Assembly: GCA_035697485.1 (NCBI GenBank)
Contig: DASSCU010000064.1
Coordinates: 1-64,000 of the forward strand
From: Actinomycetota bacterium
Lineage (GTDB): Bacteria; Actinomycetota; UBA4738; HRBIN12
Length of the DNA stretch: 64,000 nucleotides
Direction: 5' to 3'
How positions within the stretch are numbered: position 1 is the first letter of the stretch; each line of letters starts with the position of its first letter. A program made the position numbers and the translations under genes. A model generated the notes under the pieces. The model worked only from the letters and a program-made list of their open reading frames with translations. It was not told the DNA's origin and did not search any database. Below, one piece after another: positions 21,887 to 29,300 of this stretch.

Positions 21887-23356
21887 TCAGGCGGCTGCGA
21901 GGAGCGGGGGCCGGAGGTCCAGCCCGAGGTCTGACTCCAGCGTGTGTGCGGCCCGGAACAGGGTGGATTCCTCGAGCGCCGGCGCGGTGAGCTGCAGACC
22001 GATCGGCAGTCCGTTCGCGTCGAGCCCGCACGGCACACTGATCGCCGGCACGCCTCCCAGGTTCGCCGGGATCGTGAAGATGTCGTTCAGGTACATCGCC
22101 AACGGGTCGTCGGCCTTCGCCCCGATCGGGAACGCGGTCGTCGGCGACGTCGGCGAGACGAGCACGTCGAACCGCTCGAAGGCCGCAGCGTAGTCCTGCA
22201 GGATCAGCGTACGCACCTTCTGGGCCTGGCCGTAATAGGCCTCGTAGTAGCCGGCCGAGAGGGCGTACGTGCCGAGCATGATGCGCCGCTTCACCTCGGG
22301 GCCGAACCCGGCGCCGCGCGTGCGGAACATCATCTCGATCGAGTCGTCGCCGTCGACGCGCAGGCCGTAACGCACGCCGTCGTACCGGGCGAGGTTCGAC
22401 GACGCCTCGCTCGGCGCGATCAGGTAGTAGGCGCTGAGCGCATACTCCGCGTGCGGCAGCGACGCCTCGCCCACCTCGGCGCCGAGCCCGGCGAGGCGAT
22501 CGACGCCCGCGTGCACCGACGCGGCGACGTCGGGCTCCACGCCCTCGCCGAAGGCCTCGGCGAGCACGCCGATCCGCAGGCCCTGAACCCCGGCTTCGAG
22601 GCCCTGCGCGTAGTCGGGCACATCGGCGTCGAGGCTCGTCGCGTCGTGGCGATCCTTCCCGGCCATCACGCCGAGCAGCGTCGCGGCGTCGCGCACGCTC
22701 CTCGTGAACGTGCCGACGGTGTCGAGCGACGAGGCGAACGCGATCAGGCCGTACCGGCTGATGCGCCCGTAGGTCGGCTTCAGCCCGACGACCCCGCTGA
22801 GCGAGGCGGGCTGACGCACCGAACCGCCGGTGTCGGTGCCGAGCGCCCACACGGCCATGCCGCTCGCGACGGCCGCCGCGCTGCCCCCGCTCGACCCGCC
22901 CGGCACGGTCTCGAGTGCCCAGGGATTGTGCACGGGACCGAACGCCGAGTTCTCGTTCGAGGAGCCCATGGCGAACTCGTCGCAGTTCGTCTTGCCGACG
23001 AGCACCGAGCCGCCGCCCGACAGCCTGGTCCAGGCCGACGCGTCGTAGGGCGGCACGTAGTCGTCGAGGATCTTCGAGCCGCACGTCGTTCGGATGCCCT
23101 TCGTGGTGAAGACGTCCTTCAGTGCGAGTGGCATCCCGGCCACGCCCGATTGCGGCGCGCCGGTCGCGAGGTACGTGTCGAACGCCTCCGCCCGCTCGAG
23201 CGCGACCTCGGGTGTCGGCGTGAGGAACGCGGCCACGCGATCGTCGAATGCCTCGCGGCGAGCGATCGCCGACTCCGCGAGGGCGACCGCGGAGATCTCA
23301 CCGTCACGCAGGGCCGCGGAGAGCTCCGTGCCCGTGCGATCGCAGAGCTCGGTCAC
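21887..23356 (-). CDS. gatA: Asp-tRNA(Asn)/Glu-tRNA(Gln) amidotransferase subunit A
   Basis: A 489-residue amidase-signature enzyme that releases ammonia from glutamine for GatB. The Lys-cisSer-Ser triad is intact: Lys80 in PLALKD, Ser155 in PGGSSGGS and nucleophile Ser179 in DTGGSVRQPA, the same spacing as in Staphylococcus GatA. GTG 23356 overlaps the gatC stop as GTGA (23353-23356), so the two are coupled. The partner gatB is not adjacent; it is 6.9 kb downstream on the same strand. Confidence 0.98.
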   Translation of the reverse strand: MTELCDRTGTELSAALRDGEISAVALAESAIARREAFDDRVAAFLTPTPEVALERAEAFDTYLATGAPQSGVAGMPLALKDVFTTKGIRTTCGSKILDDYVPPYDASAWTRLSGGGSVLVGKTNCDEFAMGSSNENSAFGPVHNPWALETVPGGSSGGSAAAVASGMAVWALGTDTGGSVRQPASLSGVVGLKPTYGRISRYGLIAFASSLDTVGTFTRSVRDAATLLGVMAGKDRHDATSLDADVPDYAQGLEAGVQGLRIGVLAEAFGEGVEPDVAASVHAGVDRLAGLGAEVGEASLPHAEYALSAYYLIAPSEASSNLARYDGVRYGLRVDGDDSIEMMFRTRGAGFGPEVKRRIMLGTYALSAGYYEAYYGQAQKVRTLILQDYAAAFERFDVLVSPTSPTTAFPIGAKADDPLAMYLNDIFTIPANLGGVPAISVPCGLDANGLPIGLQLTAPALEESTLFRAAHTLESDLGLDLRPPLLAAA

Positions 23357-23646
23357 GACCCGGTCTCCGCGATCTTCGGCACGAGGAACCGCCCGTCGGT
23401 CGACGCCGGGGCGTTCGCGAGGGCGGCGTCGTGCGGCAGGCTCGGCTCGGGCTCGTCGTCACGGAACACGTTCACCTTCGGGATCGGCGAGGCCGTCGGC
23501 GCGACGTCGTCCGCGGCGACCTCCCCGACCTTCGCGGCGTGTTCCAGGATCACGGCCAGCTGGTCGCGCATCCGCGCCTTCTCGTCGTCGGTGAGCTGCA
23601 CGCGCGCGAGCTTCGCGACGTGGTCGATGTCGATCTCCACCGGCAT
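23353..23646 (-). CDS. gatC: Asp-tRNA(Asn)/Glu-tRNA(Gln) amidotransferase subunit C
   Basis: A 97-residue GatC, the belt-like subunit that holds GatA and GatB together. It has the family start IDIDHVAKLARVQLTDDE, a central helix with QLAVILEHAAKV, and a C-terminal strand with NVFRDDEP. ATG 23646 has TAGACT seven bases upstream (23654-23659), implying leaderless transcription of a gatCA unit. The DUF4328-like gene upstream ends 24 bases away, so readthrough is also possible. Confidence 0.96.
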   Translation of the reverse strand: MPVEIDIDHVAKLARVQLTDDEKARMRDQLAVILEHAAKVGEVAADDVAPTASPIPKVNVFRDDEPEPSLPHDAALANAPASTDGRFLVPKIAETGS

Positions 23647-23670: not shown

Positions 23671-24471
23671 TCAGTCGAGGTCCGGGCGCGGCGGTGCGAG
23701 GCCGTCCGGCCCCGCCGGGAACGGCGCCGATCCGGCTGGACCGCCCGCGGTGCCGGCGTCGATCGAGCCCTGGTGACGCTCGATGTCGCCGACGACACCC
23801 GCTCCGGCGAGCCCCGCGGCCGCAAGGAAGAGGTGCCAGACCCCGATCCCCCATGCGACCGGCGAGAGATCGACGACGTAGGTGGTGCCGCGGACCTGGT
23901 CGCCGGCCTCCGCCACCCGAGCGACGATCAGCACCCACGGCCAGATGGCCGCGACGATGCTCGCGACCACGGCCGCCAGGAACAGCGCCCACCAGACCAC
24001 GTGCAGCCCACGCCGAGGCGTCGACCCGGCCCGCGCGGCGGAGATCGTCGAGAGCTCACGCACACACACGTAGGGCATCACCAGGTTCGCGAAGGGGATG
24101 AACCACCAGATCACGGCCATGCCGGGTTTGCGGGTGGGGGCGGGAAGACCGGGCACGGCCCAGACGTTCTCGTGGGCCCGCGCCTGCCAGACGAGCCAGC
24201 ACACGGCGGTCGCGAGGAACGCAAGGCTGCCGATCCACACCACCGTGCCGATCGCGCCGGGATAGAAGGTCGAGAACGCCGGCTGGGCCGACGACCCCTC
24301 GGGGGGCAGGAAGAGGCGCACCTGCCACTCGGCATCGGAGGCCCCTCGCGTGATGGCCACGATGCCCGTGATCGACAGGATGGCCGCGCTCGCGAGGCAT
24401 GCCCATCTCGCCGCCCGCCCGGGGGCACCCGGCTCTCGGAACCGGTACGTCGTGCCGAACGCGCTCGCCAT
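23671..24471 (-). CDS. DUF4328-like membrane protein
   Basis: A 266-residue protein with about six membrane spans. The block around residues 118-140, VIWWFIPFANLVMPYVCVREL, is the conserved core of DUF4328 proteins found widely in actinobacteria; NVWAVPGLPAPTRKPGM precedes it. The C-terminus is a Pro/Gly-rich polar tail. Function is unknown for the family. ATG 24471 begins one base after the folD-like stop, so the genes share a transcript with gatC and gatA downstream. Confidence 0.75.
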   Translation of the reverse strand: MASAFGTTYRFREPGAPGRAARWACLASAAILSITGIVAITRGASDAEWQVRLFLPPEGSSAQPAFSTFYPGAIGTVVWIGSLAFLATAVCWLVWQARAHENVWAVPGLPAPTRKPGMAVIWWFIPFANLVMPYVCVRELSTISAARAGSTPRRGLHVVWWALFLAAVVASIVAAIWPWVLIVARVAEAGDQVRGTTYVVDLSPVAWGIGVWHLFLAAAGLAGAGVVGDIERHQGSIDAGTAGGPAGSAPFPAGPDGLAPPRPDLD

Positions 24472-24472
24472 G

Positions 24473-25399
24473 TCAGGTCCCCGTCCCGAAGCGCGGTTCC
24501 ACGTGGGCCGCGATCGCGGCGGCCACCAGGGTGTTCCCCACGAGCCAAACGTCGGTGATCGGCCCCACGCCGCCGGGCACCGGCGTGACCGCCTCGGCCT
24601 TGGCCGCGACCGAGTCGAAGTCGAGGTCGCCGGTCAACCGCGTCGCGCCCGTCGCCGGGTCCGGAACCGCGTGGAAGCCGACATCGACGGCGATCACGCC
24701 CTCACGGACCATGTCGCCGGTCACGAGCCCCGGCTGACCGGCGGCGACGATCAGGATGTCGGCCTGGCGGGTGGCCTCGGCCAGACGTCCCGATGCCGCC
24801 GTCCGGCTGTGGGTGGCGATCACCGTGGCGTGACGTTCGAGCGCGAGCCACTGCGCCGGCTTGCCGACGCTCGTCGAGCGCCCGACCACGACGACGGTGC
24901 GACCCTCGTAGAAGCCCGCCGGGTCGGCGCCGGTCGACCGCGCGTAGGCATCGAGCAGGAAGAAGCACGACGCGGGGGTCGACGGCACGAAGCGTGGCCG
25001 ACCCAGGGCCAGCAACCCCGCGTTCTCGGGATGCTGCCCCTCGACGTCCTTGCGTGGGTCGACCGTCGCGTTCACGACCGCCTCCGGCAGGTGCTCCGGG
25101 AGCGGTCGCAACACGAGCACGCCCGTGACGCGCGGGTCGGCGTTGACCTTGCCGATCGTGGCGAGCACGTCGGGCAGCTCCACGGTCGACGGCAGGCGTT
25201 CCGACACGTAGTGGTAGCTCAGCCCCTCGGCGAGATGCCGTACGTGGCGCTCGTAGGCGGCGGCCCCCGCGTCGTCGCCCACCGTGATCGTCGCGAGCCC
25301 GGGGGTGACCGACGACATTCGCAGCACGCGGAGTTCGTCGTCGATCGACGCCCTGAGCGTCGCCGCGAGCGCGACCCCGTCGATCACGGTCGCGCCCAC
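24473..25399 (-). CDS. FolD-like methylene-tetrahydrofolate dehydrogenase/cyclohydrolase paralogue with altered active site
   Basis: A 308-residue protein with the overall FolD architecture: VGDDAGAAAY (about 40-49), GVLVLRPLPEHL (about 93-104), PRKDVEGQHPENAG (about 115-128), the NADP fold VVVGRSTSVGKP (about 165-176), and TPVPGGVGPITDVWLVGNTL near the end. However, the three residues used by canonical FolD for cyclohydrolase chemistry are changed: the Lys four residues after the conserved Tyr is Val53, the Gln of VQLPLP is Leu97, and the Asp of DVDG is Glu120. The cofactor fold looks intact, so a dehydrogenase-only or altered-substrate role is possible. GTG 25399 lies six bases after the ligA stop. 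Confidence 0.88.
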   Translation of the reverse strand: MGATVIDGVALAATLRASIDDELRVLRMSSVTPGLATITVGDDAGAAAYERHVRHLAEGLSYHYVSERLPSTVELPDVLATIGKVNADPRVTGVLVLRPLPEHLPEAVVNATVDPRKDVEGQHPENAGLLALGRPRFVPSTPASCFFLLDAYARSTGADPAGFYEGRTVVVVGRSTSVGKPAQWLALERHATVIATHSRTAASGRLAEATRQADILIVAAGQPGLVTGDMVREGVIAVDVGFHAVPDPATGATRLTGDLDFDSVAAKAEAVTPVPGGVGPITDVWLVGNTLVAAAIAAHVEPRFGTGT

Positions 25400-25405
25400 G
25401 CGTGT

Positions 25406-29300
<3,895 letters not shown>

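Follow-up and report, generated by a model that had tools for sequence, protein, structure and literature searches.

Bifunctional FolD oxidises 5,10-methylene-tetrahydrofolate (methylene-THF) and hydrolyses the methenyl-THF that is formed. Which of these steps remains for a FolD homologue in which the residues of the cyclohydrolase site have been replaced? This question is raised by a gene, here called folD2, within the window analysed, a stretch of 64,000 nucleotides from an Actinomycetota bacterium (GenBank assembly GCA_035697485.1, contig DASSCU010000064.1). An earlier note on this DNA had read the canonical Lys, Gln and Asp as replaced by Val53, Leu97 and Glu120, and had proposed either a dehydrogenase for another one-carbon carrier or a regulatory relative. 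Our analysis points to a more ordinary function: folD2 probably encodes a monofunctional NAD(P)-dependent 5,10-methylene-THF dehydrogenase that derives from bifunctional FolD.

The gene starts with a GTG codon. Its coordinates, together with those of the site residues and the neighbouring genes, are given in Table 1. The Pfam domains THF_DHG_CYH (E 1.3e-23) and THF_DHG_CYH_C (E 1.5e-46) together span its whole length, and their scores of 83.9 and 158.1 bits, compared to curated cut-offs of 32.8 and 27, place the protein in the FolD family. The curated NCBIfam FolD cut-off of 396 was not reached (best score 244.7 bits), which by itself is weak evidence because these cut-offs are narrow. An AlphaFold2 model had a mean pLDDT of 93.3, and its best PDB matches were all FolD or MTHFD structures with TM values of 0.8–0.9; the predicted fold is intact.

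We aligned the protein with solved FolDs and with canonical FolDs of the same class, including that of its own genome. In this alignment, which is gap-free at the sites, the canonical Y-K-Q-D corresponds to Y49, V53, L97 and E120, such that the residues and coordinates read earlier were right. The motifs beside the sites are YERHV for YxxxK, VLVLRPLP for xxVQLPLP, KDVEGQHP for KDVDGxHP, and TPVPGGVGP. A displacement of Lys, Gln and Asp by a few residues was ruled out by the gap-free alignment, the matching flanking motifs and the fixed pattern. The Lys and Gln of the cyclohydrolase site of bifunctional FolD are absent from FolD2 and from its whole clade (see below). Since the exchange of Asp for Glu retains the carboxylate, the site has lost two residues and undergone one conservative change. 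The substrate and cofactor sites of the dehydrogenase are retained: Tyr49, the Glu120 carboxylate, VGRS, HSRT and GGVGP. The earlier statement that the NADP fold and the GGVGP segment remain was likewise borne out by the alignment and the predicted fold.

Table 1. folD2, its site residues and its neighbours in the window (columns: feature, position, strand, basis).
folD2, FolD homologue, predicted monofunctional methylene-THF dehydrogenase, 308 aa	24473..25399	-	Pfam PF00763 + PF02882, AlphaFold2, PDB matches
Val53, position of catalytic Lys54 (E. coli numbering)	25241..25243	-	alignment
Leu97, position of Gln98 (E. coli numbering)	25109..25111	-	alignment
Glu120, position of substrate-binding Asp121 (E. 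coli numbering)	25040..25042	-	alignment
His197-Ser198, NADP 2'-phosphate-type residues kept in folD2 (Arg174 kept too)	24806..24811	-	alignment; human-enzyme roles, PMC3368264
ligA, NAD-dependent DNA ligase, directly upstream of folD2, 6-base gap; neighbour conserved in f1	25406..27463	-	Pfam, gene orders
DUF4328 membrane protein, directly downstream of folD2, 1-base gap; neighbour not conserved	23671..24471	-	Pfam, gene orders
gatC, downstream neighbour conserved in f1	23353..23646	-	Pfam, gene orders
gatA, downstream neighbour conserved in f1	21887..23356	-	Pfam, gene orders

The genome of the window possesses a second, canonical folD (G000:C37:94839-95678) with Lys, Gln and Asp, flanked by a purH-like gene before and a metF-like gene after it (flank names read from the sequences by eye). 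The earlier proviso that folD2 might be the only FolD with normal activity is therefore inapplicable here. A search of the class found folD2 in 13 genomes of the window's family (f1), the 12 relatives having 62–76% identity; among the public records of this group are Bacterium HR12 and the MAGs AC_45, AC_51 and QQ.bins.69. All FolD2 proteins of f1 carry Val or Leu for Lys, Leu for Gln and Glu for Asp. Canonical FolD occurs as well in 11 of these 13 genomes, the other two being less complete drafts. Close folD2 pairs within f1 gave dN/dS values of 0.04–0.11, and the gene is under purifying selection. With these values and an intact gene in all 13 genomes, a pseudogene was ruled out.

Searching 396 genomes across the phylum for FolDs without Lys and Gln provided two further sets beyond f1. 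Those of type A, from families f14, f5 and f47 (about 49–60% identity), have the Asp to Glu exchange, and the type A pattern (Lys to Val, Leu or Ile, Gln to Leu, Asp to Glu) was found in every member read. Those of type B, from f18, f25, f35, f43, f49 and f50 (about 40–46% identity), keep the Asp. In an unrooted tree, a branch with a support of 100/99 separates types A and B together from every canonical FolD included. folD2 is thus a member of a clade, which the earlier note had proposed to check. Several independent losses of Lys and Gln are not claimed, because as few as two changes suffice to explain the unrooted tree. In 20 genomes, mostly more than 90% complete, the protein without Lys and Gln was the only FolD found (four of f14, G228 and 15 with type B). 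Since no other FolD was found there, these cells presumably need it for their methylene-THF dehydrogenase activity, unless an unrelated enzyme is present. Separately, a Dehalococcoidia locus (L045, 1605-3357) holds two tandem folD genes, the first with Ile for Lys and with Gln and Asp kept, the second canonical at the site and with VNTDS instead of the GRS motif. Neighbouring pairs of folD matches were also seen in G606:C15 and G663:C13.

The gene neighbourhoods outside f1 connect the clade to THF metabolism. In f14 and f5 the gene order is fhs-fchA-folD2, near LigM/DesA-like or sarcosine-oxidase-like genes; a GcvT-family neighbour scored 632.8 bits compared to the NCBIfam cut-off of 580 for LigM vanillate/3-O-methylgallate O-demethylase. 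For one f5 member (G150) just a partial fhs adjoins folD2, at a contig end. The order in f47 is fhs-folD2, with fchA on another contig within a sarcosine-oxidase-like cluster. Type B folDs lie inside Wood-Ljungdahl clusters that also contain fhs, fchA and CODH/ACS genes. Among the CODH/ACS genes, the one for the gamma subunit was verified with a model; the rest were assigned by eye. In one genome (G064) fhs-fchA-folD2 is present twice, as near-identical copies separated by about 0.9 Mb (L100 and L101), and the L100 copy is flanked by short transposase-like genes, as read by eye.

A comparable association was seen in the Bacillota. From a sample of 149 genomes 30 fchA loci were fetched, 11 of which had an adjacent FolD, 10 of them readable at the site. 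The canonical K-Q pair was present in none of the 10: half of them had Ala for Lys together with Met or Phe for Gln, the other half kept Lys and had Glu for Gln. The pair was kept in 20 of 20 Chloroflexota FolDs, which were fetched regardless of fchA. The second kind of change at this site, Gln98 exchanged for Glu with Lys retained, was found beside fchA at the Bacillota loci L199, L200, L205, L207 and L208.

Three changes in the active site, and the canonical FolD in those 11 f1 carriers, could also be expected for a catalytically dead paralogue with a regulatory or structural role. FolD is a dimer, and such a protein might for example form a heterodimer with canonical FolD. Identical changes are however found in sole FolDs of other genomes, the Tyr, the carboxylate and the cofactor-site residues are conserved, and clade members reside in operons with fchA and fhs. 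A dead paralogue, and with it the regulatory relative suggested earlier, is thus unlikely.

The consequences of the individual exchanges can be judged from published enzymes. In the human enzyme Lys56 and Gln100 contribute to both steps, and Tyr52 and Asp125 bind folate (PMC3368264). For E. coli FolD, the K54N mutant had undetectable cyclohydrolase and about 19% dehydrogenase activity, and Q98H retained about 8% dehydrogenase and about 1% cyclohydrolase activity (PMC5688156). At odds with these mutants, K53A and Q97A of Bombyx MTHFD retained both activities; for its D120A mutant no methylene-THF parameters were detectable in the dehydrogenase assay (PMC6443876). The earlier expectation that the protein should not hydrolyse methenyl-THF normally is well supported by the E. 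coli data, with the Bombyx mutants in conflict. If the Bombyx result applied here, FolD2 might still be bifunctional, its cyclohydrolase being helped by other residues such as Arg98 beside the lost Gln, and an Arg does follow Leu97 in many members. We regard this as quite unlikely, given the complete loss of cyclohydrolase in E. coli K54N, the replacement of Arg98 by Gln, His or Lys in some members and the adjacent fchA in relatives.

A dehydrogenase for another pterin carrier, e.g. tetrahydromethanopterin (H4MPT), would agree with the altered folate site but is very unlikely, because no H4MPT cyclohydrolase gene (MCH, PF02289) was found in 21 genomes including that of the window, with positive controls matched, and FolD2 relatives are encoded in THF operons and, in 20 genomes, are the only FolD. 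MtdA and MtdB are analogous dehydrogenases for H4MPT; the FolD2 protein gave no match to Mpt_N and its genome contains no MCH. A further Mpt_N search gave no match in any control and is therefore uninformative. Together, the THF operons, the sole FolDs and the absence of an H4MPT cyclohydrolase gene are better explained by an ordinary methylene-THF enzyme than by another carrier or a regulator.

Since FolD2 keeps the Tyr, the carboxylate and an intact predicted fold, we infer a dehydrogenase without efficient cyclohydrolase. Methylene-THF would be bound via Tyr49 and the Glu120 carboxylate, and hydride would be passed to a nicotinamide cofactor held in the intact Rossmann domain. Lacking the Lys/Gln pair, the enzyme would not hydrolyse methenyl-THF efficiently, and this step would be carried out by a separate protein, which judging from the gene order in relatives would be FchA where the genes are linked. 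In the genome of the window an FTCD_C/FchA-type protein or the canonical FolD may take over hydrolysis. The monofunctional dehydrogenase would then bring C1 units, released by methyl-group catabolism or drawn from related THF pools, to methenyl- and formyl-THF and the Fhs route.

Compared to bifunctional FolD (E. coli FolD, DC domain of human MTHFD1), FolD2 has the same two Pfam domains, a similar fold (TM 0.8–0.9), the substrate Tyr, the GGVGP segment and the NADP-type Arg/His/Ser; it differs by the missing Lys54 and Gln98 and by Glu for Asp121. The loop before the Rossmann domain is longer than in the canonical FolD of the same genome. Monofunctional dehydrogenases with separate cyclohydrolases are described for Acetobacterium woodii and Clostridium formicoaceticum (PMC9124964), and published maps of C. 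ljungdahlii-type clusters show folD together with fchA (PMC8515935). The FolD2 group is similar, by description rather than by sequence, in having the dehydrogenase apart from the cyclohydrolase and, among relatives of FolD2, in the pairing of fchA with folD. Unlike these acetogens, f1 is not known to be acetogenic, and the folD2 of the window lies outside an fchA/fhs operon. Yeast Mtd1 is described as a monofunctional NAD-dependent methylene-THF dehydrogenase in work cited by PMC11064299. It belongs to the FolD family and is thus alike by description; it is eukaryotic and was not among the PDB sequence matches of FolD2 at E<=0.001.

The literature searched, mostly without subscription papers, contained no paper on the FolD2 clade or on a rule based on the Lys/Gln residues. 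FolD2 is probably a variant of monofunctional methylene-THF dehydrogenase that general models take for bifunctional FolD, the label that general family models give to proteins without Lys and Gln. Whether the Lys/Gln pair is intact, taken with an adjoining fchA, provides a simple sequence rule for FolDs that probably lack the cyclohydrolase step. Such a rule alters what is predicted for C1 catabolism and the Wood-Ljungdahl pathway in uncultured Actinomycetota.

The two FolDs of f1 differ also in their cofactor signatures. In the human enzyme Arg173, His196 and Ser197 take part in NADP binding, the Arg-His-Ser combination binding the 2'-phosphate (PMC3368264). FolD2 of f1 keeps the Arg and has mostly HSRT. 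In all 11 f1 genomes with folD2 in which the canonical FolD was read, that enzyme has the Arg replaced by His, Tyr or Phe and the Ser by Val, Ile or Ala. Among the f1 genomes without folD2 the Arg is kept in G013 and G015 and not kept in G016 and G017; the change in the canonical enzyme may be a single event. In f14, f5 and f47 the signatures are swapped: canonical FolD has Arg and His, and in FolD2 the His is replaced by Asp and the Ser mostly by Val. Because the NADP-type pocket is kept in FolD2 of f1 and lost in the canonical FolD, FolD2 probably serves NADP(H) there. From these signatures we tentatively suggest that the two FolDs of one cell might split the reaction by cofactor, with the bifunctional enzyme of f1 being NAD-type and FolD2 NADP-type. 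If true, a cell would use two enzymes for the same step to hold its C1 pool against the NAD as well as the NADP couple. The opposite signatures make this redox division of labour open to testing.

Within f1, the gene orders showed no fhs, fchA or other folate gene next to folD2. Because the gene adjoins ligA and gatCA instead, the link to FchA is weaker in this family. The genome of the window does contain an FTCD_C protein, unlinked to folD2: fhs, FTCD_C, glutamate formimidoyltransferase, two GcvT-family proteins, 5-formyl-THF cyclo-ligase and FdhD lie together on contig C31. The f1 FTCD_C protein adjoins the glutamate formimidoyltransferase and scored 175 compared to the FchA equivalog cut-off of 275, and urocanase is present in most f1 members. 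For these two reasons, the score and the urocanase, it may be a cyclodeaminase of the histidine pathway. A tight co-occurrence of folD2 with fhs and FTCD_C inside f1 was looked for and not found: no FTCD_C protein was found in G018 though folD2 is present, and fhs and FTCD_C are present in four f1 members that lack folD2. The canonical FolD could supply the cyclohydrolase step in f1.

Some further genes were seen in this family. A protein at 27460-28098 (-) of the window is kept between mnmA and ligA across f1; it has no Pfam hit and only below-cut-off matches to 'hypothetical protein' models (PRK04334). In two f1 genera folD2 and gatC have between them a gene that the window lacks and that has no NCBIfam match (L041 4280-5182, L042 2985-3875). 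The genome of the window encodes a second, divergent FTCD_C protein (L120 9802-10464, G000:C17; 92.6 bits) away from folate genes, and a similar one occurs in G007 (L121).
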